A DNA stretch of 37,023 bases from Methanobacteriota archaeon (GTDB taxonomy: Archaea > Thermoplasmatota > Poseidoniia > Poseidoniales > Thalassarchaeaceae), in assembly GCA_014240285.1 (NCBI GenBank), contig JAAZXI010000009.1, positions 1 to 37,023 on the forward strand, in the 5' to 3' direction. Under the pieces are notes generated by a model that saw only the letters and a list, made by a program, of their open reading frames with translations, did not search any database and was not told where the DNA came from. Below, piece after piece: positions 1 to 31,298 of the stretch. How positions within the stretch are numbered: position 1 is the first letter of the stretch; every line of letters starts with the position of its first letter. The position numbers were made by a program, and so were the translations under genes.

Positions 1-3000
1 CACTCACCATCCACTAGGACCTTGTCAGGAGTAACACGGTCTCGTACAAGTCCTTCGACTGGAATCAATTCAAGGGTGATGTCGGCTGCGATAGATGCAA
101 ATTGTTCAGGGGAATCGTAAGAGACGGTTCCACCAACATCGACGGCTCCTGCGGTGAGCTCAATATCAGTCGAATTGGAGGTACTGTTAATCGAAACTGA
201 TCTTTGCTCATCTGAGAATCCTTCAATTTCGGTCTGAACGGACCAGTTGCTTCCCGCGGGGACGTAAACGACCCAATCTCCTTTAGAATCAGTAATGAAA
301 GACAAGTTAGAGCTATCTGATGAGATGTTGACTGTTACGTTGGCCACACCTTCGCCGACATCAGTCGAGTTGTCGTCGTTGAAGTCCCAGTAGACGTTGC
401 CGCCGAACTCCACCATCCTCGAAGCGGTGAGATTCAATGACGTGCTCCCTCCAGCAAAGGTTTCGAATGAGGATTCATTGCTTGAATCTACAATCCAGCG
501 AACTTTGCCCTCAGTTAGATTCAGTTCAACGTTCCAATTCCCGGGAGCCACTGCCGCTCTAATCTCGCCGGAAGAATCGGTCGAGTCGAGATGCACTATA
601 CCCATTCCGTCTTCTGAGACAAGTTGGAGAGAGATTTCCTCTAGTACATGCTGCGAGTAATCTTCGTACAGAATTATCTCTAGGTTGGCTACCTCGCCAG
701 TAGAAAATGAAGTGTCTGCAGAGGCGGTTTCGGCTGAAACGCTAATGAGATCGCGCAGGATTTCCTCGAGTCCGGGAGAGGTCTCGAAGGCGTCTATGGT
801 GACTATCCAGTCACCCTCAGGAATGTGCGCAGTCCACCTGCCCTGTTGGGAGAGTGTATTGGAAATCGTCCAACCACTCTCGGTGTTAGTCATTTTAACC
901 AAATGACCTGCAAGTGCCCCCCCGCTCTCGTTGGTGAATGTGATGTTGACTCTCCACTCAGGGTCGAATCCGATAGAGCGTTCGACGGAGTCGCCTTTGA
1001 GTCCGACATCAAACATAGTGTCCCCTGTCATGATTCTCGTGCCGAACGGGTCGTCCGCCTCGGCGTCAGATATCTCGACATCAATCCGGTACGAACCGGG
1101 CTCGAGAGAGAACTCTGCCACGCCCTCGGCTATCCATTCGCTGCCGTTTGCGAGGACCTCGTAAATTACATTGGAGTTATCGTATGAGTCAACGATGCTG
1201 AACGGATAGGTGACAAGAGTTCCATTCGATACATTGTTATCGCCGCTTTTATCAATGAAGAATTCAATTGATACGCTGCTATTTATTGGTTGTAAGATAA
1301 TCTCCAAAGAGTCGTTTTTACCGTCGACCTCTAGATTAGTTGTAGAAGGATTGAGCCATTCTGCATCTAAACTTACACTCCAATTACCACCTGGAAGCAC
1401 AAACGCGAATGTGCCCTCAGGGTTTACGTCGTGACGCCAAATCAAATCAGATTCTGCATTGTTTGCAAGTACAGAGACAGGTTCCCATCCGATGAAATTT
1501 GAGTCATACCTGTTGTTGGCCCTGTTAATACTGATTTGACCTTCAACGAGGTATCCTGGGCGTGCTATCAGTGTTATGTTTTCAACAACCTCAGAATCTA
1601 CGGAAGGACCATCGGGTGTGACCACGAATCTAGTTCCATCTACCAGATTTATTTGCATGCCCTGAAGTCGCACCGTTGCGTCTACATGCGCCCCTTCAGG
1701 AAGCACTACTGTGAATTCCCCCTCACCACCAGTTTCGGCTGATGTGCTGAAATTACCCCAATAAAACTCAACTTCCACATGATCGAGAAACCTGCCCTCT
1801 TGTGGCTCTTCAGAATCTGAACTTTGATTTTCATCATAGAACACCACTCCGGTAATGATGTGGCTAGTATGGAACTCAAACTCGTCATAGAAATCCTCTT
1901 CGGAAACTTCGATTTGCTCCCATACCTGTAGTTGCTGAGACAAAGTGTGATTCAATATCCAAGTCCCATGGACTAACTCAACGCTATAATTTCCAGAGGC
2001 ATTGTCGAACATCGCCATCGCCGGCTCGCCGGTACCATCCTTCAGACGCAGTGTGATGTTCAGGTCGGGAACGCTCTGGCCATCCTCAAATAGCTGGAAG
2101 GTCAGGTCAGAAGTCTCGGGCACGGGTGAAGGGAACACCATTTCTGCACTCTCCCCCTCAAGGAAGAAGTAGTCAATTGAGATCTCGGGGAAGCCATCAG
2201 AATCGAGGTCAATCTGAGCGGTGTAGTTCCCAGGGATGATTGGTCCAAACTCGAATATACCCTCTTCGTCGGGAAGAATCAGACAAGGTGCGGTGCCGGC
2301 TTCCTGGCAATCTGCGATAGCGTCTGCAGGCTCTGAAGCGTTGTCGAGCAGCATGACTGCCCCCTCCAGTGGATCTCCGGCAGCGTCAACGAGAGTTCCG
2401 CTGATAGAACCGCCTGCGATGTCAATGGTTTCGACCTCTGGATTTCCGACGAGTGGGATAGTGAAGCCGTCGTTGAGATCTATGCGAGTGCCGTCCCCAA
2501 ATATCACAGTGACGTCATAGTCACCAGGCACTGCGTCGAGTACGTGGAACGTACCCGGATGCACCATCGGGCCACTGAAAATACCCTCACCCTCGGCTGA
2601 GGAGAATGTCCCGTTGATGGTACCGAATGAATCGAGGTCCTCAGATGCGTTGACTGTGAACTTCCCGGAGCCCACCATAGTGGCGTGGTTCAGGCTCCTT
2701 ACGAACGTGGTAGAGCCATTTGAGGTGAAACGCCCAGTCGCGTTCATAATCCCGTCGAGCAAGTAATCGCCTCCTTCCAACATGCACATCGATACGTTCT
2801 CCGGCATGGTCGAGTTGACGTCGCACTCCACAATATCAGCATCGTCGCTGACAGACCCCGAAAGCGTTCCACGACCGGAGAACTGTCCGTCGCCGGTCAT
2901 GCTGTGGTTGTGCAAGATGGTCTGAGTGTAGTTGCCCGTGAAGTCGCTCACAGATACAATGCCCTGCGAGACCACCGTGCCCTCGCCAGTGAAGGTAACC

Positions 3001-6000
3001 TCGCCGATACCACCGAAGGACAGGTCGTGACCCTCCACGACACCGGTCGATGAATCGACAGTGTAAGGGGCGAGTTGCACCCGATCCCATGAAGGGGAGA
3101 GTTCGATGCTGACATTGGTTAGAGGAGTTCCGTCGAAGAACTCGGCTCCCGACCACACCAGTTTGCCAGTGGCGTGGGAAGGAGAGACCGAGATGTTTCC
3201 ATAGACCGTCTCCAAGCCGTTACTGTGACCGGCTGAACCGGAGACGTTGACTATGGCCTCCGAGAGCCAGGTCGAGCCTGAGACGTTAGTCAGGATTCCG
3301 GTAATCGGGTTGACGTTTCTGCTGGCGGAGGTTTCTTGGAATATGTCGCCCAATGTTTGGCTCACGTCCGAGGCCATAATCAGCGATCGGGCGGCTTCGA
3401 GGTCAGGCTCACCGATGAATGCGGAAACTCTGATTTTGCCTGCTGGGGCGGTGAAGGAAAAATGTCCGTTCTCGTCAGCGTCTGCATAACCAATGGGGAT
3501 CCAGTAGGTGCGGTCGTCTCCATCAACAACATCTCCGTTCTCGTCGGCGACCTCTTCGCCGCTGAACGCGTCGCGCTCAAACATCACACGGGCGTTGGGA
3601 ATAGGCCCAAAGCCCTCCAACTCGACGGTGCCCTCCAGAGTTGCACCACTGTAGTACTTCATGATCTTCACCTGGGTGTTGGCCGAGCCGATGGTCGGGT
3701 CGGTGCAGTCCTCGTTTACCTTCGAGCCGTTGTCGAGCAATTCGCAGCGCTCGTCATCGTACCAGTTAGACAGTACGAAATGGTTCATCATAGCCCCGGG
3801 CATGGGGTATGCATTCTCGAGGTAAGAGCCCGGAGTGCCTGTGGTGTAGAAGTGCGGCGCGGGCTGCGCGGCTTCACCAGGAAGACCTAGTGCCGATGTA
3901 GAGTACCCGACGTAGAACTTGGCCACCATTGTATCGAAGAAGGCGGGCTGCTGCTGGTAGTCGATGTCGACCATCCTGATAATCTCAGTGGAGTCTGAAG
4001 CGCCTGAATTCTGCCTTATGATATCGTTGAGGTATTCCTGCTCGTACTCAGCAGCGGTTCGAGGGATAATCGGCCCATCTCCTCTCTGAGTCTCGTAGAC
4101 TGCGGTGATGTAATCGTCCATGTCTAGACCGGACAAGCCGGTCGGAGCGTGGAAGATTCCTGTGGTCTGGCCACGATGGTACTGGTAGTCTGCATAGTAC
4201 GCGCCACCGAGGGGATACAGCCTATTGTCGATGGCGAAGTACCTGATGTCATTGTTCCGCGTCACCATCTCACCGAGCTCACCCTCGTAGTTCTGGACAT
4301 CGTATTCCAGACTGGTGATTCCGTGATAGATGGCAGCGAGGTCGCTCATCTCAAAGGCGCTGGTCAGGAAGGCCCTGCTGAGTGCGAGACGGGCGTTCGT
4401 GCGGTGCAAGCCGGTCGATACGTCGTTGAAGTCCTCTATCAGATCGCTAGTGTATCTATAGTCGTCAATCAAGTAGTGGGTCGTCTCTAACTCGAATTCG
4501 GCGTTGTTTAGCCTAGTGGTGTCGAATAACTCCATGGCCTCGGTCTCGTTTGTAGTGGAATTACCCATCTGAATTCCGTCTATCATAACCACCCAGACTT
4601 CCTCATCTCCGGGCGTACCATCGGGCCCGAGGAGATGTCCTCGGAGAAGCTCTGTCTTGTCGTCGGTGGCCAATACTGCCATAGAGCGGTCGAGGACAAA
4701 GCCCTCGTCGCCAACACCTAGCGATAGGATGTTGTCGTACTCAATGAATTGGCTCGGTGACATGTGCTCGGCGAGCACCGATGAGAAATCTTCGGTGAAG
4801 CCGCCGCCGTTGTAGCGCCGATCGCCCTGAGCAAGGGTGGTGATGAACAGTGAGAGGGTGTCCTCCTGGCTGTTGGACAGGAGCATTCCTCCGCTGTTCG
4901 GTATCCCCGACTGGAAGTTGTCGGCCACGGTGGGGTGCTGCCCTTGAGCAAGCGCTTGGAAGCCGTAGTCCCACCAAGAGACGAAAGCGGGTCTCTCGCT
5001 GAAGCCCACGTCGGAGTCCTGCTCCGACAACCACTCGTAAGCGAGGTTCCAGGATCCGCTGTTGAATCCCGGACCGAAGGTACCCATGTACCACATCTCC
5101 GAATCTGGATTGTAATCCTCACTCTTGAGCACCGAGAGCCCCAGTAATTCGGCCCGCAGGAAGTCTGGTGCGATATCATGTATCGCCTGATCCACGTCGG
5201 TTGCCGACGGTTGGCCCCGGGGTATTCCGGAGTCTATGCCATAGGTAACATGCTGCGAAGCTACGAGCATGACGACTAGGAGCAAGGCAGGAACTGCGGA
5301 GTTCTTCTTAGTGGCAGGCCACATCGAATTCCACCGGGATCTCGGAGTGCCGATTCCTGAACGGCGCCACTCCTTGACAAATGCTGAGAAGTTTGCACCC
5401 TTCCACATCATTGCGATGCCCAGTCCGCCAACGACAGCCATCGCTGGTGTTGCGTTGAAGATGAATCTACCAGCAGACCAAGCCATGTAGGTCGCTATGA
5501 TTACCCAGATTCCCAGAAGCAGATGGCTTTGGCGCTCGCGTTTGGCCCCTCGCCACATCAGAAGTAAAGCGCACCCCACTGCAATTAGAGCCACGATTGG
5601 CCCGTATGATGCGAATAAGACACCTCGGCTAGGAGCTTGGGCCTCGCCAATGGTTCCAAAGACCTTGTTCTTGGAGAAGTAGAAACCCCCCGTAAACAGG
5701 ATGTCCCACCCGCTGTAAATCTCTAGCTCCTGCAGAACGTAAAGGATGGCCAGTATGCCGCCTATGAGCATGGTGCCGCTGCCGAAGACCAGTAGCCATG
5801 GCTTGTCTCGGTAAGCGGATGAGACCCAACCCAGTGCGATGGTGAACCCAATGATGTAGAACATCGGTTGGAACCCGCTGGGGTCGAACAAGAGGTTTAG
5901 CCCGGGCCAGTTGTAGAATGGCAGTGGAATCAAGAATGTCGTGAGCAGCATCTGTAGAGCGGCCGAAGTGAGAGGTAGGCTGTCTCGCCTGCGGAACATG

Positions 6001-7847
6001 TTCAGTGCTATTTGACCTGCGAACGCTAGGAACAGTATGCCGGGGCCGTAGACGAATCCCTTCCATCCGAGTGCCACGGTGGCGAACGAGATACCGGACA
6101 GTGTGGCGTATGCCATAGTCCGGGGGTTCTTACGCCAGGTCTCCCTGATTCCCGCTACTAGGTATAGAGGGTTTGAACTAGGGGTTGTGAATAGCCTCTC
6201 CGTGCCGAGCCCCTCGATGGCCCTGACCCAGAAATAGAACGCCATCGACAAGAACAGTAGAGCAAAGGCGTCGTGGTCTGCTAGACCGAATGTCGAGTGT
6301 GAGATGTGTCCTGGCATCAGGGCGATGAGCCATGCGGTCAAGATTCCTGCAGTATTGCTGTGTACCCTCCTCGCCATTGCGGCGAGAGGTAGAACGATGA
6401 GTGCACCGAATATAGCTGGGAAAGCTGCGACGCTCCACCAGACGGCCTCTTCGGCGGGCATCTCCAGAAGCCACGAGAGGGCGAAGCCTCCGAGTGCCAG
6501 AGACCACGAGAACAGTGGTGGGCGTGGGTTGATGGCCCCCATAGGGTAAGCTCGATCATGGTCGAAGATGAAGTGACTACGCTCTGCAATAATGTAGTCC
6601 ACGACGCGTTTCATGTACCACGGATCCGAGCCTCCGGTCATGTCCCAGAGCCCTGTTGCACTAGCGTTCATCGCAGGAAGGACGTTCCAACCCGTGCGTA
6701 CGGCGAAAGCCACGAACACTGCGAGAGCCAGCATAATCCCATAGGAGTGCTGCCCCCACCAGACGCGAGCGGCGCTTGGCTCGTGACGAGGAGAGACGTC
6801 TCCTAACTTTCCACGCGCGGCGACCATGATGCCAATCACATTCAGCCAGAATCCGATGAAGAACCAGGAGAAGGTGCTCATCGCGTCGTCACTACTGAGT
6901 AAGTCCGGGAACTTGTTCCCAATCTCCTGTAGGTGTCCGAGGGTGTATAGCGACCAGTTTATCGCTACCAATGTCCCGATTACCCTCCACCTCTCTGCAT
7001 GACAGAACGCCACAAACAGGATTACTGCCGTGGTGAACAGTGCCCATACCGGGCCGAGGTATTGATGCTCAAAGTAAGTCTGTACGTCAGATATTTGTCC
7101 GAGCCAGATAAGTGGCACGGCCTGAACTACGAGCACCATGCCAATCGTGGTCATGATGGATTTGCTGGGTGTGGTCGGGAGACCCGAGAACCAGGAACCA
7201 CTACCAGGCGAATCCAGATTGCCAAAAGTACTCTCATTGGAATCCGGATTACCAAAGGTCCTCATGAGCAGAGCCATGGCTACTCCTGTCACAATCGAAA
7301 CGGCCCAGAAAGCGAAGAAGACCGAGGCGACCGCAGCTCGCTCAGCATCGATTAGGCCAGGCGCGGCACCCGTCCAGGACGAGGTGTCCATCGCGGAGTT
7401 CGCAGCGTGAGACACGGCCAAGTGGAAACCGATGACCACTGCTAGGAGTATCGTCGATTCCTCTCTCTTGTCGGAATTGACCAGTAGGAAGGTCGAGATA
7501 CCAACGAAGGCAAACGTGAAAGCGGCTAGGTTTCCGATGTTAATGAACAAATTAGATGCCACCGAAATTAGGATTGCAGCAGCAATGAACGCCATCATTA
7601 CTACGGCACGATGGGTGGAGCGGCTTCCGATGGACACCACAGCACCGGTTCTGCCTGTCGCAGCCGCGAGGGCGGCTGCGACAGGCAGAATCAGGACTTG
7701 CGTGTATCCGTCATTTTCCATTGCTCCATTTGCAGCGTAGTCGGCCCCAAAGAAGAGTGCCAGCAATGCTACTAGCACCGCCGGGACCGAGGCGAATCCC
7801 GAGATTGGGAACCCGCTTTCTGCTGCATCATTTGTGTCATTCATCAT
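1..7847 (-). CDS. aglB: STT3/AglB-type oligosaccharyltransferase with very long C-terminal beta-sandwich (carboxypeptidase-regulatory-like) extension; 3' end truncated by window edge
   Basis: Not in the ORF track because it has no stop in the window. Start MMNDTNDAAESGF at 7847, preceded in frame by TGA at 7853-7851. I checked the frame (codons starting at + strand multiples of 3) over 5271-7850 and 3-1743 and found no TTA/CTA/TCA; the rest translates continuously by reading. N-terminal half is polytopic, with SDPWYMKR (~6607-6638) and LADHDAF acidic motifs, then WWDYG at 4962-4976. After that come repeated beta-rich segments such as 'GPIIPGNYTAQIDLDSDG', 'VLPGGNWSVSLDA', 'LEPGSYRIDVEISD'. 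Confidence 0.88.
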   Translation of the reverse strand, partial: MMNDTNDAAESGFPISGFASVPAVLVALLALFFGADYAANGAMENDGYTQVLILPVAAALAAATGRTGAVVSIGSRSTHRAVVMMAFIAAAILISVASNLFINIGNLAAFTFAFVGISTFLLVNSDKREESTILLAVVIGFHLAVSHAANSAMDTSSWTGAAPGLIDAERAAVASVFFAFWAVSIVTGVAMALLMRTFGNPDSNESTFGNLDSPGSGSWFSGLPTTPSKSIMTTIGMVLVVQAVPLIWLGQISDVQTYFEHQYLGPVWALFTTAVILFVAFCHAERWRVIGTLVAINWSLYTLGHLQEIGNKFPDLLSSDDAMSTFSWFFIGFWLNVIGIMVAARGKLGDVSPRHEPSAARVWWGQHSYGIMLALAVFVAFAVRTGWNVLPAMNASATGLWDMTGGSDPWYMKRVVDYIIAERSHFIFDHDRAYPMGAINPRPPLFSWSLALGGFALSWLLEMPAEEAVWWSVAAFPAIFGALIVLPLAAMARRVHSNTAGILTAWLIALMPGHISHSTFGLADHDAFALLFLSMAFYFWVRAIEGLGTERLFTTPSSNPLYLVAGIRETWRKNPRTMAYATLSGISFATVALGWKGFVYGPGILFLAFAGQIALNMFRRRDSLPLTSAALQMLLTTFLIPLPFYNWPGLNLLFDPSGFQPMFYIIGFTIALGWVSSAYRDKPWLLVFGSGTMLIGGILAILYVLQELEIYSGWDILFTGGFYFSKNKVFGTIGEAQAPSRGVLFASYGPIVALIAVGCALLLMWRGAKRERQSHLLLGIWVIIATYMAWSAGRFIFNATPAMAVVGGLGIAMMWKGANFSAFVKEWRRSGIGTPRSRWNSMWPATKKNSAVPALLLVVMLVASQHVTYGIDSGIPRGQPSATDVDQAIHDIAPDFLRAELLGLSVLKSEDYNPDSEMWYMGTFGPGFNSGSWNLAYEWLSEQDSDVGFSERPAFVSWWDYGFQALAQGQHPTVADNFQSGIPNSGGMLLSNSQEDTLSLFITTLAQGDRRYNGGGFTEDFSSVLAEHMSPSQFIEYDNILSLGVGDEGFVLDRSMAVLATDDKTELLRGHLLGPDGTPGDEEVWVVMIDGIQMGNSTTNETEAMELFDTTRLNNAEFELETTHYLIDDYRYTSDLIEDFNDVSTGLHRTNARLALSRAFLTSAFEMSDLAAIYHGITSLEYDVQNYEGELGEMVTRNNDIRYFAIDNRLYPLGGAYYADYQYHRGQTTGIFHAPTGLSGLDMDDYITAVYETQRGDGPIIPRTAAEYEQEYLNDIIRQNSGASDSTEIIRMVDIDYQQQPAFFDTMVAKFYVGYSTSALGLPGEAAQPAPHFYTTGTPGSYLENAYPMPGAMMNHFVLSNWYDDERCELLDNGSKVNEDCTDPTIGSANTQVKIMKYYSGATLEGTVELEGFGPIPNARVMFERDAFSGEEVADENGDVVDGDDRTYWIPIGYADADENGHFSFTAPAGKIRVSAFIGEPDLEAARSLIMASDVSQTLGDIFQETSASRNVNPITGILTNVSGSTWLSEAIVNVSGSAGHSNGLETVYGNISVSPSHATGKLVWSGAEFFDGTPLTNVSIELSPSWDRVQLAPYTVDSSTGVVEGHDLSFGGIGEVTFTGEGTVVSQGIVSVSDFTGNYTQTILHNHSMTGDGQFSGRGTLSGSVSDDADIVECDVNSTMPENVSMCMLEGGDYLLDGIMNATGRFTSNGSTTFVRSLNHATMVGSGKFTVNASEDLDSFGTINGTFSSAEGEGIFSGPMVHPGTFHVLDAVPGDYDVTVIFGDGTRIDLNDGFTIPLVGNPEVETIDIAGGSISGTLVDAAGDPLEGAVMLLDNASEPADAIADCQEAGTAPCLILPDEEGIFEFGPIIPGNYTAQIDLDSDGFPEISIDYFFLEGESAEMVFPSPVPETSDLTFQLFEDGQSVPDLNITLRLKDGTGEPAMAMFDNASGNYSVELVHGTWILNHTLSQQLQVWEQIEVSEEDFYDEFEFHTSHIITGVVFYDENQSSDSEEPQEGRFLDHVEVEFYWGNFSTSAETGGEGEFTVVLPEGAHVDATVRLQGMQINLVDGTRFVVTPDGPSVDSEVVENITLIARPGYLVEGQISINRANNRYDSNFIGWEPVSVLANNAESDLIWRHDVNPEGTFAFVLPGGNWSVSLDAEWLNPSTTNLEVDGKNDSLEIILQPINSSVSIEFFIDKSGDNNVSNGTLVTYPFSIVDSYDNSNVIYEVLANGSEWIAEGVAEFSLEPGSYRIDVEISDAEADDPFGTRIMTGDTMFDVGLKGDSVERSIGFDPEWRVNITFTNESGGALAGHLVKMTNTESGWTISNTLSQQGRWTAHIPEGDWIVTIDAFETSPGLEEILRDLISVSAETASADTSFSTGEVANLEIILYEDYSQHVLEEISLQLVSEDGMGIVHLDSTDSSGEIRAAVAPGNWNVELNLTEGKVRWIVDSSNESSFETFAGGSTSLNLTASRMVEFGGNVYWDFNDDNSTDVGEGVANVTVNISSDSSNLSFITDSKGDWVVYVPAGSNWSVQTEIEGFSDEQRSVSINSTSNSTDIELTAGAVDVGGTVSYDSPEQFASIAADITLELIPVEGLVRDRVTPDKVLVDGE
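7210..7269 (-). repeat. Two-copy ~30-bp imperfect tandem repeat within aglB (encodes TFGNPDSNES/TFGNLDSPGS)
   Basis: gaatccagattgccaaaagtactctcattg followed by gaatccggattaccaaaggtcctcatgagc. Confidence 0.7.
7651..7688. repeat. Perfect inverted repeat, 17-bp arms, 4-nt spacer, inside aglB coding sequence
   Basis: CTGCCTGTCGCAGCCGC-GAGG-GCGGCTGCGACAGGCAG. Confidence 0.95.
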
Positions 7848-7902
7848 CAATCACCGTATTCAGCCTGAAGGCCAGCGTCGCGCCGATTTGACGGGCTGTT
7901 AT

Positions 7903-7957: not shown

Positions 7958-9226
7958 CTACAGAGCGCGGAATGCGATATCCGAGCGGTAATGTGAGCCC
8001 TCAAGCCCTATGCAGCCGATTACCTCGTATGCAGCGCCGACCGCATCACTGATTCCCGGTGCTATACCGGTGGCCGACAGGACGCGTCCCCCCGAAGATA
8101 CGAGATTGTCCTCTGAATCGAAGTCCGTACCTGCGTAGTGCACGAAACCTCTGACCTCGCCCTCCTCAATCTCGACCTCGCTCCCAGAGATGACTCGCCC
8201 CGTAACGGAGGAGGCAGGATAGCCCTCCGAGGCCAGTACGACCGTGGCTGCGGAGTGAGAGTGGAACTTGACCTCGGTGTCACTGACCCTGCCTTCTGCG
8301 CAGGCCAGCAGGAGTTCAGCCAAATCGCTGGATATCAGAGGAACGGTGACTTGGGTCTCGGGATCGCCGAAACGGACGTTGAACTCAATGACTCCCGGGG
8401 CACCTTGCGAGTCAATCATCAGGCCGACATAGAGGCAGCCTCTATACGGAACGTCCTGGTTCCTTAGATGGTGGTGCATCGGTTCGACAATCTCGTCAAC
8501 CACCCTCTGTAGAACTGCTGGAGTCGCCACTGGTGCAGGAGCATATGCTCCCATGCCCCCTGTGTTGGGGCCGGTATCTCCCTCTCCCACTCTCTTGTGG
8601 TCCTGACTAGGTGGTAGGCAGACGTAGCCCGACTCGTCCATCACGACCAGAACTGAGGCCTCCTCTCCCGACAAGTACTCCTCAAGCAGAACGAAGTCGT
8701 CCAAGGCGAGCCCTGCAACGAGAGCGTCGTGGGCTTGCTGCCTGTCTGATGTTACGGTGACGCCTTTGCCGGCCGCTAGCACATCGCGCTTGACCACCCA
8801 AGGAGATTCAAACGAGTCAAGTGCGGCCTCAATCGCCTCTGCCCCCTCCACTACTACACAGCCCCCTGTAGGGACGCCTAGTGACTGCATGACCCTCTTG
8901 GCATGCAATTTTGATCCCTCGAGTACCGCACCTTTTGCATGTGGTCCGAAGCAAGCTATTCCCACGGCTCTGAGAGAATCGGCGAGGCCGTCGACCAATG
9001 GACCCTCAGGGCCGACAATGACTAGGTCGGCACCGAGTTCAACGGCCAGCGAGACCAATCCCTCAGTATCGCTGGCTGAGACGGCGTGATTGATCCCCAC
9101 CATCGACGTGCCTGCATTACCCGGAGCGCTGTGGATTGACCCGACTGAGGGGCTGGAGTCGAGGCCTAGACAGAATGCATGCTCCCTGCCACCCCCTCCG
9201 ACGACCAACACAGTCAGTCCGGGCAT
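7958..9226 (-). CDS. purD: Phosphoribosylamine--glycine ligase
   Basis: 422 aa; VVGGGGREHAFCLGL N-terminus, SAPGNAGT, ATP-grasp motifs KRDVLAAGKGVTV, VIEFNVRFGDPETQ. Confidence 0.97.
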   Translation of the reverse strand: MPGLTVLVVGGGGREHAFCLGLDSSPSVGSIHSAPGNAGTSMVGINHAVSASDTEGLVSLAVELGADLVIVGPEGPLVDGLADSLRAVGIACFGPHAKGAVLEGSKLHAKRVMQSLGVPTGGCVVVEGAEAIEAALDSFESPWVVKRDVLAAGKGVTVTSDRQQAHDALVAGLALDDFVLLEEYLSGEEASVLVVMDESGYVCLPPSQDHKRVGEGDTGPNTGGMGAYAPAPVATPAVLQRVVDEIVEPMHHHLRNQDVPYRGCLYVGLMIDSQGAPGVIEFNVRFGDPETQVTVPLISSDLAELLLACAEGRVSDTEVKFHSHSAATVVLASEGYPASSVTGRVISGSEVEIEEGEVRGFVHYAGTDFDSEDNLVSSGGRVLSATGIAPGISDAVGAAYEVIGCIGLEGSHYRSDIAFRAL

Positions 9227-20323: not shown

Positions 20324-23300
20324 ATGAGTGGTCGGTCTCGACGTAGTGCAGCGGGCCTCTCATTGGCTATTCTAGTACTGATGTCACTGTCGCCGGTCTT
20401 GATTGATGGGCTTAGCGAATCAACACCTGCCAGAAGCGCCTCCGATCGCTCCACAAATTGCTCGGTAGTGTGCATCAACGAGATGATGACAAATGCTGAC
20501 GGCTCCGATCAGGGAGTATTTCCGGATGGCGAATGGGTCGAACTGCACAACTCCGGATCGATTGGAGTCAGTCTTGAAAACTGGTTCCTTGAGGACATCG
20601 GGGGCTGGGTGCACCCAATCGACGCAGGAACTTGGGTTGACTTCGACCAGCTCGCTACTCCCTATGTCTTGACGGCTGGCTCGTATGCCATCATCGCCGA
20701 GAACGAGATTGGCACCTTGCGCCTGAACAATGCCGGCGAGACCCTGTATCTCAAGGACGCCGGAGGTACTGTGGTTCATACTGCGACCTCAGGCGAGGCC
20801 TCCAACGGAGTCTCGAAGATACCTAATCCCTCAGATCCGAATATGGACTGGATAGACTCTGAGGAGAACACTCCGGGAGCCGAGAACTCTGAGACTACGG
20901 GGGGCGGTGGAGGAGAGGTGGGATCGACCCCTGCTGACCTTACTCGCGTCATGGCGATGCCGAGTGAAGCCGAGGTGACTGGCCTCCACATCAACTCCTT
21001 AGGCAATCTGTTTGTCAACGCAATGCATCCAGACGACGCCAACTACAAGGCGACGGTTGGAGTTGTCAACGGAGTTGATTGGAACAACCTCCCCGAAGTA
21101 GTGCCTGAACTTAGCATATCGAGCAGTGAGTGGGACATCTGGCACGGCATCAGAGTATCCATCGGAGACTATCAGGTACTGTTGCAGAGTGGGGATCAAC
21201 TTTCTGAAGGAGGGGTAGCCGGTGGCATCTACGCTGCTGATGACGGAGAGCTGTTGTTTACCAGTGAAAAGCCGGACTTCAATGCATTCGTGCCGCTAAA
21301 CCAGCAAGGCACCAGGGGGTACCTGTACACAACTTGGGAGAGTCGTCCTGCGGGAGTCAGTCAACTCCTGATAGAATGGGACGATGATACTGGCCAATGG
21401 GAAGTCCAAGGTGGGATGATGCAGGATCTCAGCGGAATGAATGGTGGATGGGTGCTCTGCTTCGGCTCGATGAGCCCCTGGGGAACTCCTTTGCTTTCCG
21501 AGGAGCTTTACTTCGCAGACACAGAGAACTGGAACAACCCTAGTTACAACTACCACTACAACCAGCAGGAACTGGCGGATTACCTCGGATACTACCCTAA
21601 TCCCTACGACTACGGATGGATAGTGGAGATTGAGAACGCTGCAACCGCATCGCCCATTTTCAACAAGCACATGGCGATGGGGAGGTTTTCTCACGAGAAT
21701 GCTCAGGTGATGCCGGATGAGAGGACTGTCTACTTGACAGACGACGAGTACGGCACAGTACTGTTCAAATTCATCGCTGACACAGCCGGCGACCTCAGTG
21801 CAGGTACTCTCTACGCAGCCAAGGTAACACAGGACTCCGGTAGCGACCCTTCTACCACAGGGTTCGATGTTGATTGGGTTGAGATGGCATCCTCGAGCAA
21901 TTCAGTAGTCGGGGGTTGGGTAGATGAGTACGACGGAATCACAACCTCTGACTATGTCGCAGGCGAGAACTCATACATCACTGAAGAGGAGATCAACGCA
22001 TGGGCCGAAGAACGATTGAATGAGGACTTGGATGGGGATGGCGAGATAGAATCGACTGTCGATGATAGGGTCGCCTTCCTAGAGTCTCGAAAGGCGGCCG
22101 GGGCCATCGGAGGAACTGATGAGTGGAACAAGATGGAGGGAGTTGTGTTCAACCCGGAGGCACCGGGTTATCTGTACCTAGCAATGTCTGACGTGCGCTA
22201 CGACATGAGCGATGGCGAGGGCGACATCGGGCTCTCAGAGAACCGTTGCGGTGTCGTATATAGGATGCCAGTGGAAGATGGGTGGGGAGTAAGTAGAATC
22301 GAGCCAGTGATTGCTGGAGGGCCCTATTCTTCGGGAGAATGCGATGTGAACAATATGGCTGGACCGGACAACCTCGCCGTCCTAGACGATGGCAGAGTTC
22401 TGGTGGCTGAAGACACAGGTAAGCACGACAACAACATGCTGTGGCTGTGGGACCCTCCCGTCGAGCCGACCGAGTGGGACGGCGAATACAGCCTGAAGTT
22501 CACTCGTATCATGCCTGCAGAAGTCCCGGATCGAGACAATGACTGGTTTGAGATTACCAACACGGGTGAAACCGCGATCAGTCTGGCCGGATGGACCATC
22601 GAGCGCATACGCTCAACTGACCCTTGGATTTCCATGGTCAATGACCTGACCATCGGCGCCGGCGCGTCGGTGGTGCTGACGGAGAATCCGGCCAACCTCC
22701 TAGCGGACGGAGGCATAGCAGCACTGGACGGAAACGTCGTCCTGAACAATATGCCCTGGCTGGTCGACTCAGGTAGCGCGCTGCAACTGAAGGCGCCTGA
22801 TGGAACGGTAGTCGATGCCATCGCCTTCGGTGGAGGGATTGCTGATATTGACGGATGGCAAGGCGGGGCCGTATCGGTCCCAGGAGATGGTTCGCCCGGA
22901 CTCATTCTGATGCGAGGCTCCGGATGCGGTGACTACCCCGACACCGACTCGGGAGCTGACTGGGAGCAGAGGTGGATACGCATCGGCGCATCGACGTTCT
23001 GCGACGGCGGGCACTTCACGACCGAGACTGATTCGACTGCGTCTGCCTCGATCGGCCCGGACTCGGCGTTCAACGATCTCATACAGTGGATTGCCGAAGC
23101 CGAGGACTCGATACACCTGCATGTATACCAGTTCATGAGTCCAGATTTGACTCACGCCCTTCTGGATGCCATTGGCAGGGGTGTCGAGGTCACGCTGCTG
23201 CTCGAGGAGGGCATTCTCGACGGCAGTAGCACAGTGAACAACCAGAGAGGGCATGCACAGGCTCTGCACGATGCTGGAGGCAATGTCCTCTGGATGGAGG

Positions 23301-24907
23301 ACCCGACGCTGATTAGCTCACCCTACACGTATATCCACAGTAAGGTGGCGGTGAGGGATGCCGAGAGTGTCTGGATCTCGTCGGGCAACTGGAAGGATAC
23401 CAGTGTCCCTCCCGATGGAGTTGGCAATCGGGAGTGGTCGGTAATCTTGAATTCGGAGACCGCCGCCCAGCTAGTACTCTCCAGAATGGCTTGGGATGAG
23501 AATCCCCAGCACCTGCACATTTCACCTCACTCTTCCCGGCACTCCCCTACGTTTGACTGGACCCTAGACGAGGCCAGCCACGATGGTACCGTGACTCCTA
23601 CTCCTACTCATCAAGGGCCCTTTGAGGTCCAGCTGATGACCTGTCCCGACGACTGCATCGATGGCATAGTCGGTATGCTCGGTTCAGCAGAGACTTCGAT
23701 TGAGCTATCAGTGCAGTATCTCGACCTCGACTGGTACTGGGGCTTCGGAGATAATCCAATCATAGCAGCGTTGCACGATGCTGCGCTACGTGGGGTAAGC
23801 ATCCGGCTGATGCTGAACGGCTACTACGCCGAGTGGGATGAGGAGATTCGAGATACTATCCACATGTTCAACACCGATTGGAACGCCACCGAAGGGCTTG
23901 ATACGACGGCGCGGCTGATGGCGTACTCCAACAGTATCGTCAAACTGCATAACAAGGGTGCGATAATCGATGGCGAGAGTGTCCTAGTGGGAAGCATGAA
24001 CTGGGGCTCAAGCGCAGCCCTACGCAATCGGGAGATGGGTGTGCTCATCCACCATGACGGTCTTGCTGCAGAGTATCTCTCCTCCTTTGAGGAGGACTGG
24101 GGGCGACTCGATTCGACAACTGACTCAGACGGCGATTTGATGCCGGACGTGTGGGAAGCACAATTCGGACTCAACAGGCACTCGGCGGCTGTACTAGGGA
24201 CCGCTCTCAGCGAGCAGTCGCTCGACCCTGATGAGGACGGCCTGAACAACCTCGAGGAATTCCAGCTCAACGGCAACCCTCTCTCTAACGACACTGATGG
24301 TGACTGTATACCCGACGGCGAGGAGTCGGCCTTCGCCCAAAGTGTGCTTCGTTCTCCCTCTTTCGCCATGATTTCAGGGGACGTAGATGAGAACGGCGTT
24401 CCCGACGGAGAGCAGCATGGCTGTCAGACCATCGTGGATGTCGGCGGAGAAGGCGATGGAGAAGGCGGTAGCGAGGGAGAAGGGAACGGCTCTGAAGAGG
24501 AAGATGGACCGAGCGGGGGCATCCTGAACATCAGAGATGATCCTCTGTCGCGACCGGGCGCGACGTTTCTGTTCTGGCTGATGGTGATATCTACGATATC
24601 ACTGGCATTAGCCGGTGCCTCAATGTTCTTGCAACCTCGCAAAGGTACCGGCGAGGTTCTGGTCGATGACTCCGGTTACAGGTTCGATGACCCTGATGCC
24701 CATATGGCGATTCTCAAGGGAACCAGTTTCGACGAGGGAGCAGAGGATGCTCGTGCTCGCACCGAGGGGCGCGACGACGGCTCGCACGGGTCCATCCGAA
24801 TGGATGGTTTCGGATTCGAATCTGCCACGCGAGACGAGGTCCAGTGGATGCTCGACCAGGGCCATACAATCGAAGAGGTGAGGGCCGAGCTCGGAGAGGA
24901 GGAGTGA
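20324..24907 (+). CDS. Secreted multidomain enzyme: lamin-tail domain, PhoX/DUF839-like phosphatase, lamin-tail domain, tandem-HKD phospholipase D, TSP3-like repeats, C-terminal TM and cytoplasmic tail
   Basis: 1527 aa. PhoX-like: CFGSMSPWGTPLLSEE, GRFSHENAQVMPDERTVYLTDDEYGTVLFKF, EGVVFNPEAPGYLYLAMSDV, GPDNLAVLDDGRVLVAEDTG. PLD: HSKVAVRDAESVWISSGNW and HNKGAIIDGESVLVGSMNWG. Lamin-tail: INEMMTNADGSDQGVFPDGEWVELHNSG and TRIMPAEVPDRDNDWFEITNTG. TM FLFWLMVISTISLALAGASMF. Confidence 0.88.
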   Translation: MSGRSRRSAAGLSLAILVLMSLSPVLIDGLSESTPARSASDRSTNCSVVCINEMMTNADGSDQGVFPDGEWVELHNSGSIGVSLENWFLEDIGGWVHPIDAGTWVDFDQLATPYVLTAGSYAIIAENEIGTLRLNNAGETLYLKDAGGTVVHTATSGEASNGVSKIPNPSDPNMDWIDSEENTPGAENSETTGGGGGEVGSTPADLTRVMAMPSEAEVTGLHINSLGNLFVNAMHPDDANYKATVGVVNGVDWNNLPEVVPELSISSSEWDIWHGIRVSIGDYQVLLQSGDQLSEGGVAGGIYAADDGELLFTSEKPDFNAFVPLNQQGTRGYLYTTWESRPAGVSQLLIEWDDDTGQWEVQGGMMQDLSGMNGGWVLCFGSMSPWGTPLLSEELYFADTENWNNPSYNYHYNQQELADYLGYYPNPYDYGWIVEIENAATASPIFNKHMAMGRFSHENAQVMPDERTVYLTDDEYGTVLFKFIADTAGDLSAGTLYAAKVTQDSGSDPSTTGFDVDWVEMASSSNSVVGGWVDEYDGITTSDYVAGENSYITEEEINAWAEERLNEDLDGDGEIESTVDDRVAFLESRKAAGAIGGTDEWNKMEGVVFNPEAPGYLYLAMSDVRYDMSDGEGDIGLSENRCGVVYRMPVEDGWGVSRIEPVIAGGPYSSGECDVNNMAGPDNLAVLDDGRVLVAEDTGKHDNNMLWLWDPPVEPTEWDGEYSLKFTRIMPAEVPDRDNDWFEITNTGETAISLAGWTIERIRSTDPWISMVNDLTIGAGASVVLTENPANLLADGGIAALDGNVVLNNMPWLVDSGSALQLKAPDGTVVDAIAFGGGIADIDGWQGGAVSVPGDGSPGLILMRGSGCGDYPDTDSGADWEQRWIRIGASTFCDGGHFTTETDSTASASIGPDSAFNDLIQWIAEAEDSIHLHVYQFMSPDLTHALLDAIGRGVEVTLLLEEGILDGSSTVNNQRGHAQALHDAGGNVLWMEDPTLISSPYTYIHSKVAVRDAESVWISSGNWKDTSVPPDGVGNREWSVILNSETAAQLVLSRMAWDENPQHLHISPHSSRHSPTFDWTLDEASHDGTVTPTPTHQGPFEVQLMTCPDDCIDGIVGMLGSAETSIELSVQYLDLDWYWGFGDNPIIAALHDAALRGVSIRLMLNGYYAEWDEEIRDTIHMFNTDWNATEGLDTTARLMAYSNSIVKLHNKGAIIDGESVLVGSMNWGSSAALRNREMGVLIHHDGLAAEYLSSFEEDWGRLDSTTDSDGDLMPDVWEAQFGLNRHSAAVLGTALSEQSLDPDEDGLNNLEEFQLNGNPLSNDTDGDCIPDGEESAFAQSVLRSPSFAMISGDVDENGVPDGEQHGCQTIVDVGGEGDGEGGSEGEGNGSEEEDGPSGGILNIRDDPLSRPGATFLFWLMVISTISLALAGASMFLQPRKGTGEVLVDDSGYRFDDPDAHMAILKGTSFDEGAEDARARTEGRDDGSHGSIRMDGFGFESATRDEVQWMLDQGHTIEEVRAELGEEE

Positions 24908-26184: not shown

Positions 26185-27251
26185 GACTGGGGCACATAGA
26201 TCGAATGAGAGCCATAGCCGTACTGTGCATGGTCGAAGTCCACACGGCGGCCATTATCCCACCCGAAGGAATCAGTGTTGGTCACCCTGCTGCCTTCGTC
26301 GCAGCCGCCTTCGGAGGGATGGCCGCGCCGATGTTCGTCGCCATATCTGGTTGGGGCATCCACATGAGTGCGATTCGCAGAGCCGCTGACCCTGCCCACA
26401 ACGCCGGGATATGGTTGCGTTGGCTGGCTCCCAGAATCTTGTTGCTGAGTCTATGTCAGCTGCTGGTCAACCTTCTACTCAGCGCCGACCGAGGGGGTCG
26501 CTTTGAGTGGCAGACCCCAGGTGTCCTGACACTGCTCGCAATAGGTGCCCTGCTGGCACCTGTCCTAATTCGGCTCTCTATGCGCTCTCGCGCATTACTG
26601 ATGCTGGTGATGATGGCAACACCATTGGCTCTCGGAGACATCTCTGGACCGGACTGGTCATGGTGGGAACGGGTTGGTTCTGAAGGAGTTTCAGAATGGC
26701 TTGCTAGGCTGCTATGGAACGGCACATATCCTGCGGTACCGTGGCTGGGTTTCGTGCTTCTGGGCTCCTTAATCTACGACCTTGCTGATAATCCGGCTGC
26801 GAGAGAGCGTGGCATCGTCCTCGGACTCGCTGCTACCACTGTCACGGCGGCCATCGCAGCGTTTGAGGAGATCCCTTGGGCTCTGACCGAGGGCGAGGCA
26901 GTCCTGACCTTCTTCCCAGCGAGCACCGCCTTCCTCGTCGTTTCCGGAACCTTCGTGCTAATCGCCCACAGGGCGCTTGAGGGCTCGGAGGCGAGTGGTG
27001 GCGAGCCGGGTGGAGGTGACCGTCTGGCGTCTCTTGAGTCCGCTGGCCGAATCACGCTGACAATCTACGTCGCTCATTTCGCCGTGTTGGGTGCTGTGGC
27101 ATCGGCGATGCAGGGGGAGCCTAGACTGGAGCTCGTTCCAGCCTTCGCTGCGACCATCGCCAACACTCTCATCTGGATACCTTTGGCGGCCTGGCACCAG
27201 AAGCACATACCCAATATCTCCTTCGAGGCCCTACTGAATAGACTCAGTTAG
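26181..27251 (+). CDS. Polytopic membrane protein, acyltransferase/DUF1624-like; TTG start at 26181 or ATG at 26202
   Basis: 356 aa; RLGHIDRMRAIAVLCMVEVHTAA N-terminus typical of membrane acyltransferases, about 10 hydrophobic segments. Confidence 0.68.
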   Translation: MRLGHIDRMRAIAVLCMVEVHTAAIIPPEGISVGHPAAFVAAAFGGMAAPMFVAISGWGIHMSAIRRAADPAHNAGIWLRWLAPRILLLSLCQLLVNLLLSADRGGRFEWQTPGVLTLLAIGALLAPVLIRLSMRSRALLMLVMMATPLALGDISGPDWSWWERVGSEGVSEWLARLLWNGTYPAVPWLGFVLLGSLIYDLADNPAARERGIVLGLAATTVTAAIAAFEEIPWALTEGEAVLTFFPASTAFLVVSGTFVLIAHRALEGSEASGGEPGGGDRLASLESAGRITLTIYVAHFAVLGAVASAMQGEPRLELVPAFAATIANTLIWIPLAAWHQKHIPNISFEALLNRLS

Positions 27252-30200
27252 GTGTCACCGAAATCGGACCAAACCATACATCGCCCTCTTCGTTAGATGC
27301 CATGATGCGAACGTAGTAGGTAGTGTCGTCCGCTAAACTGATACCGGCAGAACCAGGGCCCACCTGAGGTGTACCGGCGCTGACGCTGTATGGCCAGAGT
27401 TGAGAATTGTTGCCCATGTCGGTCTGCCCGTAGTAAACGGTGAGAGTATTATTGGTGCCATTGTCGTAGACGTCCCATGTGACATCTGCAGTGCTGCTGG
27501 TGACATTGATCGTGGTCAGATTGCGAAGTATTGCGTCGTAGACGTAATAGTCGCCGCGCAGGGGGTCGTCGACCCATACCGGCAAGTGCTCAAGTGCGTC
27601 ATAGGTAGCTTGCGTCAGAGGGAAACCCCACGCAGCGTGATAGGGGGCGAGGTTGTATCCAGTAGCATTTGAGAGATGCAAAACCCATGCGTTGAACTCC
27701 TCGTTGCCGTTGGTCGGGACCTCTGCTGCAGGAAGAGTATAGTAGACGCTGAGAGCCTCTGTAATCGGCCCCCACCCCCACTCCTCCTTGATGATCAGAT
27801 AGGTGTCGAGTGCTATCCAAACGGACCAATTGGAGATGTTGGAGCCATCCTCGAAGTACGATTCCATCCTCGCTGCCCTCTGCTCTGGGTCAACGGCACT
27901 GTGTCCTTCTACTCCGACTAAATCTTCCATCAAGTAGACGCTGGCGAAGTTGCATCCCGTCTCAGTAGTGCCAGGGAGTGTGGATGGCATCCACTGATGG
28001 TTGTGGCCGAGTTCATGGAACATCCCCCAGTCACCGTTTTCTCTCATGTAAGATACGTTGACCACACCTGCCACACTGAGGTCGTGTGCCATGAATGGGT
28101 ACCCTGAGTGCATCCAGCCAGCAGATATCTGTGCATCGAAGACTGCTCTCTCCACTCTTGGCCATGGCTCAAAACCATACAGTTCATGCTCCATTTCTAG
28201 AGCCGTGTCCCACCACTCCATCAATTCCGTAGGATTTGTCAAATCTCGAATCTCATGGCTGGGCACTGTCATGATGAAATTATTAGAAATCAGTTCCGCC
28301 CACGGAGCTGGATTATCGTTCTCAAAGTAAATCCATTCAAAGTCACCCGTCTCCCCAAGAACAAACATTGGGGCCTTCACGGCGTTTGAGATATTTACTT
28401 GGAAGTCGCCCAATGTAGAGCCCGGCTCTATTGCGATGTAGATTGGTCCGCCGAAGGCATTCCCCACCTCCATCGTCTCCTGATCGACATACCACCATCT
28501 GACGATCTGCGGGTGCCGGTGTAGTTGGTCTTTAGACCACAGACTGTCGCTGTGTGCACCAACTAAGACATAGGTCCCTGAATCGACTGTATGGTTAGGA
28601 AGTGTGACCGTTACGACCTCTCCGGGAGCGGCATACAAACCGGTGGTCATCCTCACATGCGCTCTGGCCCCGGCATATCCGAAATTACTCGGAAGCCCGC
28701 TCTGATTGCCATCTATTGTCACAGTCCGTAATATCCTCGTTGCATTGGATGGCACCTCTCCGGGGAACTCAACATGGCTGGGATGCGCCGGGAGTTCATG
28801 CGCTGGTAGCCCCTGTGTCAGTGCCGCCTCCACTCTGAGCAAGGTGTCGGCTACCGGATCCTCGCCCATGTTATGACCGATGTTCTGCCACAATGTGCCA
28901 TATTCGATTACTGTCCAACCAGTAGCGTTGACTGTCTCCCTGAGAGGCGACCAGAAGTCATGGAAGTCCAAGGTCACTACCCCCGTGCATACGGACAGTG
29001 TGGAGTCGACGATAGCAGCATCATCAGTAGAGAGAGTCTGATTGTCGTTCCTGTCGGCTCTGATTGCCTCGATGGCCGCATGGGGACGGGCTAGCTCGTG
29101 CGGGAAATCAGACAGGTCGATATCGTTGTAGCCCCAGGCAGGTGAGACGAACAGCCCGGTCGTCTTGGCAATCTTGTTGCCCGGGTAGTTGTGCGCTACA
29201 TCGGAGTTGGAGTACGACCAGTACCAAGCATGACCACCCATTATCAGACCACCCCCCGCGAGCATGAAGTCGACTAGATTCTGGTTGTCTGAATCGTCAT
29301 GGCCGTTCCAGAACTCGTCGAGCAGGCAGTCTATGCCCGAGAGGTCCGCCGGAGTCACTGAGAGGTGAACCGTGTGACCTTTTGCCTGCAGTTCGTCCTC
29401 GAAGTCGTCGTAGCCCGCGCCGTAGGCGAGTCCCACGTCAGCGTTCTGGCCGCAGACCCATTCAACGGCGCGCAGGGAGAACTCGGTCTCCATGACGCCA
29501 GCGCCGTCGACCCAGCTCTCATGGCCGTATCCGAGCATCCTGCCACGACCGACGTGGCTGGCGGATATCACGGGAATCGTAGAGCCATAGCCCTCCTCTG
29601 TGAAGCCGATGGGGAAGGCCCACTCGCCAATAGGCAGTATCGGAGAAGGCCAGCCGCCCCAGTTCGTCTGTCCCATGCCGCGCAGCAGGTCTGACTGGTC
29701 GGCTTCGAGGTCGTGAACGGCTATCCACAGACTCAGCCCGGCCACCCCGCCGGTGTTGTTGGCCCAGATGATGTACTGCCTCCAGCCGGTACGCTCGTCG
29801 GGAGTTCCCGAAATTGTCCCGTTGGTAAGCAAAGTAAGGCCAGAGGGCAACGGCGGACTGACCTCCCAAGTCTCAATCTCGGGGCCATCGTTGGTGGCTA
29901 GTATTACGATACTCTCGTTGGCCTTCAGTGCGAATTCGATGTCAGGCCAAGAGATCGCGTCAGGAGGAAGACTGGTCACCCGAAACTGAAGCGGGGTCGA
30001 GGCCGGGCCACCGGAATTGTTGGCCCAGACAGTGTGGTGGGTCCACGGCTGTAGGAGGATTGCGGAGCCACTAATCTGCCCAGTATAGTAGTCGAAGACG
30101 AAGCCGGAAGGCAATGGAGGGTCTACTTCCCAGATGTCCGGAGTGCCGCCCTGCCAGGTCGGCATCACCTGCCCGATGCCATCACCCAGCCTAATGTCGA

Positions 30201-31236
30201 ACTGATAGGGCTCGTACCCAAGGCCCTCTACAGGGATGTCTCTGACGTCGATGAGAATGGTCGATGAGAGTGAGCCACCGGTGTTGTGAGCAGTGATTAC
30301 GTACTCCCTCAGTGGGTGCGCCGATATCGGAGTTCCTCGTAGAGAGCCATCGAACTGGTGCAGCACTACTCCTTCGGGAAGAGGGGGTTCGATTGACCAG
30401 TTAGTGACCTGCCCTCCCTCAGAAGATGGTATGACTTGCACTGACACACCTATGGTCCAGTAGAATGGGTGCCCGGGGTACGAAAGAGCCGTGGGCTCTT
30501 CATGTAGGGTGATGATTCGAATTGAAGTTTCAATGGAGCCGCCTGAGTTTGAGGCGATAACGGTGTGATTGGAGTCTCCGAGAGCACGTGCTATGCCGGT
30601 TATTGAACCGTCGTCGAGAATCACCAGTCCTTCAGGAAGTAGAGGGCTGGTTGACCACTCGTCTGCTGTTCCACCCAACAGCAGTGGTGAGCCGATTGAG
30701 CACTCCTCCCCCAGAGTGCACGGTAGAACATCTGAGAGATATTGGATGGAATTCGGAGCCGCGGCGACCACCGTTATGTCGATGGTGGTGACCGCAGAGC
30801 CTACCGCGTTCGTACCGATGATGGTGTAGCGGATTTCGATAGCCGCCCCCTCAGGAGTCCCTCCGATCACCCCCGAATCTCCATCGAGAGACAGACCATC
30901 TGGAAGCCGAGGGTTGACGAACCAGTCCTGTGGGCCGTCGCCGAGGAAACTCGGAGTCAGGGTCTGCATCTCGACTCCGACGATGAGAAGGATGGAGCTC
31001 TCCCCATAGGTCAGAGAACTCGGCTGCTGCATTATCCTGCAAGCATCACCAGTGAACACCTGCTGGGCTGTGCAGTCGTCCTCAGTGATGACAGGGACAA
31101 AGCAGTCGGGGTGAGACGGCTCGGCGACACAGTCGACCTCCTCAACCGGCTCCTTCTCCTCGTCGAATAACCCAAGACATCCCGAGCTGAGCATCAGCAT
31201 CGAGAGCAGGAGGGCGGCGTTGCGCTTCGGCTGCAC
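27244..31236 (-). CDS. Lipoprotein with five putative Ig-like (He_PIG-type) repeats, TCAF-like GATase-fold region, M60-like zinc metallopeptidase and C-terminal Fn3-like domain (track start GTG 31302; alternative GTG 31236)
   Basis: Lipobox LSMLMLSSGCLG; repeats with 'W..xPPLPxGx...GxxxGTP'; GGGLIMGGHAWYWSYSNSDVAHNYPGNKI; WGMFHELGHNHQWM...NFASVYLMEDLVG. Confidence 0.85.
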   Translation of the reverse strand: MQPKRNAALLLSMLMLSSGCLGLFDEEKEPVEEVDCVAEPSHPDCFVPVITEDDCTAQQVFTGDACRIMQQPSSLTYGESSILLIVGVEMQTLTPSFLGDGPQDWFVNPRLPDGLSLDGDSGVIGGTPEGAAIEIRYTIIGTNAVGSAVTTIDITVVAAAPNSIQYLSDVLPCTLGEECSIGSPLLLGGTADEWSTSPLLPEGLVILDDGSITGIARALGDSNHTVIASNSGGSIETSIRIITLHEEPTALSYPGHPFYWTIGVSVQVIPSSEGGQVTNWSIEPPLPEGVVLHQFDGSLRGTPISAHPLREYVITAHNTGGSLSSTILIDVRDIPVEGLGYEPYQFDIRLGDGIGQVMPTWQGGTPDIWEVDPPLPSGFVFDYYTGQISGSAILLQPWTHHTVWANNSGGPASTPLQFRVTSLPPDAISWPDIEFALKANESIVILATNDGPEIETWEVSPPLPSGLTLLTNGTISGTPDERTGWRQYIIWANNTGGVAGLSLWIAVHDLEADQSDLLRGMGQTNWGGWPSPILPIGEWAFPIGFTEEGYGSTIPVISASHVGRGRMLGYGHESWVDGAGVMETEFSLRAVEWVCGQNADVGLAYGAGYDDFEDELQAKGHTVHLSVTPADLSGIDCLLDEFWNGHDDSDNQNLVDFMLAGGGLIMGGHAWYWSYSNSDVAHNYPGNKIAKTTGLFVSPAWGYNDIDLSDFPHELARPHAAIEAIRADRNDNQTLSTDDAAIVDSTLSVCTGVVTLDFHDFWSPLRETVNATGWTVIEYGTLWQNIGHNMGEDPVADTLLRVEAALTQGLPAHELPAHPSHVEFPGEVPSNATRILRTVTIDGNQSGLPSNFGYAGARAHVRMTTGLYAAPGEVVTVTLPNHTVDSGTYVLVGAHSDSLWSKDQLHRHPQIVRWWYVDQETMEVGNAFGGPIYIAIEPGSTLGDFQVNISNAVKAPMFVLGETGDFEWIYFENDNPAPWAELISNNFIMTVPSHEIRDLTNPTELMEWWDTALEMEHELYGFEPWPRVERAVFDAQISAGWMHSGYPFMAHDLSVAGVVNVSYMRENGDWGMFHELGHNHQWMPSTLPGTTETGCNFASVYLMEDLVGVEGHSAVDPEQRAARMESYFEDGSNISNWSVWIALDTYLIIKEEWGWGPITEALSVYYTLPAAEVPTNGNEEFNAWVLHLSNATGYNLAPYHAAWGFPLTQATYDALEHLPVWVDDPLRGDYYVYDAILRNLTTINVTSSTADVTWDVYDNGTNNTLTVYYGQTDMGNNSQLWPYSVSAGTPQVGPGSAGISLADDTTYYVRIMASNEEGDVWFGPISVTPN

Positions 31237-31261
31237 GGGCCTTATTGGACGGCCTCTGGCG

Positions 31262-31298
31262 AAAAAGTGTCCGGAAGGCGTGCTCCTCAGGAGCACGC
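31262..31298 (-). terminator. Putative terminator downstream of glyA: 10-bp stem with single-nt centre, T5 tract about 11 nt further on
   Basis: + strand GCGTGCTCCT-C-AGGAGCACGC at 31278-31298, directly abutting the glyA stop; T5 on minus strand at 31266-31262. Confidence 0.5.

Follow-up and report, generated by a model that had tools for sequence, protein, structure and literature searches.

AglB oligosaccharyltransferases of Marine Group II archaea and most other sampled Thermoplasmatota families carry a giant beta-sandwich arm with a predicted C-terminal membrane anchor

Contig JAAZXI010000009.1 (G000:C105), a stretch of 37,023 bases to which we refer as the window, opens with the 3'-truncated gene of AglB, an oligosaccharyltransferase (OST) of the STT3 type. 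Complete relatives from Marine Group II (MGII) archaea show that this single gene encodes a protein about three times the size of the usual enzyme, in which an N-terminal module of ~10 helices, the STT3 core, and the WWDYG domain are followed by ~1,700 residues of tandem beta-sandwiches and an anchor helix. Similar long arms are present in most sampled families of Thermoplasmatota. This long-arm form of a known enzyme is real and well supported, and has apparently been under-described.

The AglB frame starts from an ATG at 7847, with a TTG at 7850, and is free of stop codons down to base 3. Because the window is an entire contig, the open 3' end of the gene is the end of the contig, and the giant frame that a sequence-only reading had described as open to base 1 is indeed single and uninterrupted. 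Differences between the arm and that of L171 amount to 0.15/0.10/0.50 at codon positions 1/2/3, and the same comparison with L170-L226 reveals purifying selection across the entire arm; the frame is coding and constrained over its full length. A genome scan with alignment of the AglB core gave 80 named loci, including records of Ca. Thalassarchaeum, Thalassarchaeaceae, and Marine Group II; the two closest loci encode proteins 92% and 91% identical to the window AglB, and the host is placed in MGII, in Ca. Thalassarchaeum or very near it. In 53 of these loci, which come from independent genomes and represent both MGII families, the frame is complete at 3,124-3,325 aa (median 3,190), 44 of them lacking any N. 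Interrupted loci end at contig ends or runs of N, together with two early stops inside contigs (L178/G007, 1,264 aa; L198/G003, 2,608 aa) that we read as frameshifts. The complete frames refute a frameshift or stop splitting the catalytic and repeat parts and, judging from these relatives, the complete gene has a further ~540-580 residues outside the window, with a membrane helix at its end. A genome profile search gives a single STT3 match in the host genome, which is 82.5% complete, and one match per genome in nearly all sampled relatives.

Family and motif matches confirm, at the level of sequence, that the window protein is an AglB/STT3 enzyme, as had been proposed. PF02516 (STT3) scores 69.0 bits against a cut-off of 24.5 over residues 378-810 (numbered from the TTG), or 74.8 bits in the genome search, and the best PDB match of the core belongs to the STT3/AglB family. 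The catalytic motifs SDPWY (residue 407), ADHD (523), TIGE (732), and WWDYG (958, at the position first given for it) are invariant or nearly so in an alignment of 18 MGII sequences. As to the DK/MI signature of the Ser/Thr pocket, the segment YFAIDNRLYP is conserved, with DNRLY at residue 1207, and the second signature residue is ambiguous from sequence. The window protein misses the cut-off of TIGR04154, which describes STT3 associated with archaeosortase A (168 bits vs 450); of 9 genomes of the class that were searched for archaeosortase TIGR04125, 7 have it. The N-terminal module is modelled by AlphaFold2 (AF2) with a predicted local distance difference test (pLDDT) of 87 and a predicted TM-score (pTM) of 0.85; it has no fold match in the PDB (best Foldseek E value 0.24), and a hidden Markov model (HMM) of the module finds no match among the other AglBs of the phylum.

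We set the border between catalytic domain and arm from conservation and the AF2 model, which place the end of the catalytic domain near residue 1390. The stretch 1-5270 given in the sequence-only reading thus combines two parts: its tail description holds from ~3677 on, whereas the part from ~5180 to 3680, which includes the conserved YFAIDNRLYP segment, is catalytic globular domain. The carboxypeptidase-regulatory-like beta-sandwiches proposed for the tail were borne out by a PF13620 (CarboxypepD_reg) score of 74.9 bits, with the best stretch at residues 2499-2562 (TTG numbering), and by AF2, which, from 52 MGII sequences, models residues 1381-2580 of the window protein as almost purely beta (mean pLDDT 85.4). 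Foldseek matches of the arm are to tandem prealbumin/Cna-B-type proteins (TIE, PitA, SpaA, SdrD, BcpA), and family profile searches gave no match to S-layer families. All 53 complete MGII AglBs close with a single C-terminal hydrophobic helix and a tail more positive than the flank preceding it, so that the arm would be held at both ends and would not dangle freely. The final residue is Phe in every one of them (C-termini of L172-L249). A C-terminal Tyr or Phe is also frequent in other C-terminally anchored MGII proteins (27/57).

The arm is rich in N-X-S/T sequons. With counts begun 55 residues beyond the WDYG motif in 27 MGII arms, and with the mirrored S/T-X-N motif as control, we find 1,226 sequons vs 582 expected from composition and 571 mirrored, whereas the N-terminal, catalytic halves of the same proteins hold 124 vs 124 expected and 148 mirrored. 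The median arm has 38 sequons, and the window AglB has 42 from residue 1001 on, vs 18 mirrored. Counts per 200 residues climb at about residue 1,400-1,600, which is where the arm starts. Control proteins from the same loci give sequon ratios of 0.88 (no membrane helix), 0.44 (polytopic), and 1.09 (secreted or anchored). Elsewhere in the window, an M60/enhancin-type peptidase with a He_PIG Ig domain (27244-31302, minus strand) is sequon-rich, with 21 vs 5 mirrored.

Long arms extend well beyond MGII. Of 244 genomes sampled across the class, 231 contain an STT3 match, always over the cut-off. Uncut MGII frames in this sample span ~3.1-3.3 thousand residues, those of a sister order (f3, which is probably Marine Group III) 2,337-2,375 aa, and those of most sampled families of the phylum 1,831-2,744 aa; short AglBs of 1,163-1,432 aa occur in families f14, f5, f32, f27, f30, f31, and f9. 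The statement that known AglBs measure 600-1000 aa is therefore sound for characterised enzymes but fails as a rule for this phylum, given the long arms in most of its sampled families. A C-terminal helix is present in 29 of 29 complete long AglBs outside MGII, with a positive tail in 28, and none was found in the short forms. HMMs of MGII arm pieces recognise arms in other families, that of the C-terminal piece hitting C-termini there with E values down to 1e-19, and some equivalent long frames lie on long single contigs. The long-arm label requires 2 changes on a tree of 49 STT3 sequences, compared with 7.6 when labels are shuffled. The PGF-CTERM model (TIGR04126) finds no match before the C-terminal helix of the MGII protein L222, and an archaeosortase-processed C-terminus is rejected for MGII AglB on this missing PGF motif. 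In families f7 and f23 the C-termini of AglB do resemble PGF-CTERM, with scores below the cut-off of 24.5 bits (L164, 18.1; L145, 14.0), and that of L144 looks PGF-CTERM-like by eye and is unmatched by TIGR04126. Judging from these sequences, the end of the arm in f7 and f23 may be handed to an archaeosortase.

The arm invites comparison with NOMO, a protein of the BOS complex and the multipass translocon of the endoplasmic reticulum, which likewise has tandem prealbumin-like domains and one C-terminal helix and is extracytoplasmic on the secretory route. In a search of the whole PDB, the top match of a profile of 27 long arms is NOMO2 (E value 8.8e-33), as is that of the MGII arms (2.8e-6). 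One stretch of the profile is, however, reused in the alignment for several NOMO domains, and in a control search of 2,136 frames with a NOMO2 fragment the best match is a secreted non-AglB protein, L275 (1.6e-8), with AglBs at 8.7e-5 or worse. NOMO is not among the top 50 of the arm fold search, and the sole genome matches to PF23194, taken as a test for NOMO, fall below the cut-off. Searched as single sequences against the PDB, two long arms and a non-AglB giant had no match; being empty for arms and giant alike, these searches do not discriminate. Common descent with NOMO, or descent from it, is not supported, since the attractive profile matches fail the L275 control for specificity. NOMO also differs from the long-arm AglBs in not being an OST and in having only ~1,200 aa, and we conclude from the sequence comparisons that the arm is NOMO-like in architecture, with kinship supported only as far as the shared domain family.

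Genes next to AglB differ between MGII and the rest of the phylum. In both MGII families purD lies upstream; in several cases a CarS-like gene lies beyond it. Downstream, after a gap of ~50-90 bases in most, both families have a gene for a membrane-tethered subtilase of ~408 aa (Peptidase_S8, E value 1e-38; L033 13554-14777, L051 5105-6316), followed by one for a surface protein of ~1,440 aa with a WLWD...WVPDP-type tail; the window ends before these two genes. The arm or its clients could be substrates of this subtilase. In eight non-MGII families, by contrast, the gene after AglB, often overlapping it by 4 bases, encodes a CARDB-type protein of ~257-355 aa with one helix, a basic tail (PKWKK-type end), and in most cases a signal peptide (L133 2932-3708, L135, L151, L136, L139, L169, and others). 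This protein is a candidate accessory OST subunit. AglBs that have no such separate gene match its profile at their C-terminal end (E values to 7e-13), although the profile is not exclusive and picks up other secreted proteins too. The possibility that it is a TRAP subunit is rejected: Pfam gives mainly CARDB, and the best 60 PDB profile matches include small uncharacterised domains and antibodies and no TRAP.

We infer that the arm is a glycosylated, doubly anchored scaffold of or around the OST, a reading to which we give roughly even chances. One giant polypeptide is the only recognised STT3-type OST of this MGII archaeon. Its STT3 core and WWDYG domain would move lipid-linked glycans onto N-X-S/T sites outside the cell, and the chain would continue as ~1,700 residues of tandem prealbumin/CarboxypepD_reg-type beta-sandwiches before the C-terminal helix re-enters the membrane and leaves the basic tail in the cytosol. 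The arm would form a very large extracellular loop, both ends pinned beside the active site, many sequons of which AglB itself would probably glycosylate. Such a scaffold would surround the OST, might retain emerging surface proteins nearby, and may also contribute to the surface coat of long-arm lineages. Several observations weigh against this reading. The pTM of the arm model is 0.46, which leaves domain packing and overall shape undefined. The arm diverges faster than the core, except for its first domains (residues ~1380-1780), where conservation is near that of the catalytic part. Sequon enrichment is seen in other giant secreted proteins as well, so that it marks surface exposure to the OST and no role specific to AglB. 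Finally, predicted S-layer genes in Aciduliprofundum and surface layers in some acid-mine Thermoplasmatales (PMC3750248) imply that the arm would be no simple substitute for an S-layer.

Other explanations account for part of these data. The arm might be mainly a cell coat, a membrane-bound glycoprotein layer in wall-poor archaea whose fusion to the OST only secures co-expression and glycosylation; the number of sequons per arm, twice that of the mirror control, would suit such a layer. However, conservation in the first arm domains almost equals that of the catalytic core, which points to contacts with the enzyme, and OSTs are usually of low abundance, a poor fit to a coat, and we regard this explanation as rather unlikely. 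We find it improbable that the arm is a NOMO-like translocon-side accessory that links the OST with SecY and with clients that are multipass or secreted. The NOMO2 profile matches and the CARDB single-helix, basic-tailed partner encoded after AglB in other families favour this idea, but those matches lack specificity and the partner has no TRAP match. A broader version, in which AglB is a one-polypeptide glycosylation station at the translocon, its extracellular, self-glycosylated arm, anchored at both ends, doing the scaffolding and client-holding of the eukaryotic OST accessory proteins, TRAP, and NOMO, and the translationally coupled single-helix partner (several families) or tethered subtilase (MGII) joining in, is something of a long shot. 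The sequence-only reading had offered an adhesin/S-layer-like scaffold or a substrate-presenting arm; sequon enrichment favours its surface-exposed scaffold, whereas the C-terminal anchor in all complete MGII and other long AglBs disfavours a freely projecting adhesin. Resemblance of the arm domains to Gram-positive pilin and MSCRAMM modules, and the view that MGII attach to particles (PMC6461757), would be in keeping with an OST-borne arm that acts as an adhesin or binds particles. Such a function seems very improbable, however, when the distal end is anchored in the membrane, the modules are generic, and the architecture recurs in other families across the phylum. Hardly any weight attaches to an assembly or annotation artefact fusing AglB to a neighbouring surface protein. 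The end of the gene is absent from the window contig, but the complete relatives, the coding constraint throughout the frame, and the equivalent long frames across the phylum already refute it.

Window-type AglB departs from the AglB-Long enzymes of Archaeoglobus fulgidus and Pyrococcus furiosus (PF02516; PDB 3waj, 5gmy) by addition. Both types have the STT3 core, SDPWY/DHD/TIxE, WWDYG, and an extracellular C-terminal domain, which in AglB-Long bears extra units (IS, P1, P2); the window type adds the 10-helix N-terminal module, the arm, and the C-terminal membrane helix. A. fulgidus AglB-L has 499 + 369 residues, and AglB units are named CC, IS, P1, and P2 (PMC3703281). Other long-arm AglBs of Thermoplasmatota (e.g. 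G313, G275) share the STT3 core, tandem beta arm, basic-tailed C-terminal helix, and homologous arm pieces with the MGII proteins but measure 1.8-2.7 thousand residues and lack the MGII N-terminal module. Gram-positive Cna-B/SpaA-type pilins and SdrD B repeats have the fold of single arm units and, unlike the AglB arm, are wall-anchored or polymerised adhesins without an enzyme. Comparative papers on Thermoplasmatales describe AglB homologues and single-membrane, mostly S-layer-free cells and, in the relevant passages, leave the arm unmentioned (PMC3750248, PMC5155288), and an MGII genome paper does not discuss the OST (PMC6461757). We found no published account of long Thermoplasmatota AglBs in the open literature, subscription papers being outside the search. 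The sequences are already public; what is new is the recognition of this architecture and of how it is distributed. The usual picture of AglB is that of a stand-alone enzyme of 600-1000 aa; in this phylum, which includes the most abundant planktonic archaea of the surface ocean and the wall-less Thermoplasma, it commonly has 1.8-3.3 thousand residues, a second anchor, and a sequon-rich arm. The OST itself becomes a candidate major glycoprotein, and a cultured system exists in which OST-attached scaffolds can be tested directly. For annotation, such giant frames should be treated as single genes.

Table 1. Positions in the window of the AglB gene, its parts, and the adjoining purD gene.
Feature	Position	Strand	Basis or remark
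AglB/STT3 gene, 3' end missing	1..7847	minus	2,615 residues, no stop codon
N-terminal module, residues 1-372, ~10 membrane helices	6732..7847	minus	AF2 and HMM; MGII AglBs only
STT3 membrane core with catalytic Asp (GGSDPWY), ADHD, TIGE	5421..6719	minus	PF02516, PDB match, motif alignment
Extracellular catalytic globular domain (approximate borders)	3678..5180	minus	WWDYG at 4962-4976, YFAIDNRLYP helix region
Beta-sandwich arm, ~1,220 residues in window (~1,700 in complete relatives), N-X-S/T-rich	1..3677	minus	AF2, Foldseek, sequons
CarboxypepD_reg unit (PF13620) of arm	162..356	minus	Pfam
purD (GARS), directly upstream of AglB	7958..9226	minus	Conserved MGII neighbour

The window also encodes, on the plus strand at 20324-24907, a protein of 1,527 aa with PLD-like, PhoX-type phosphatase, and lamin-tail domains.

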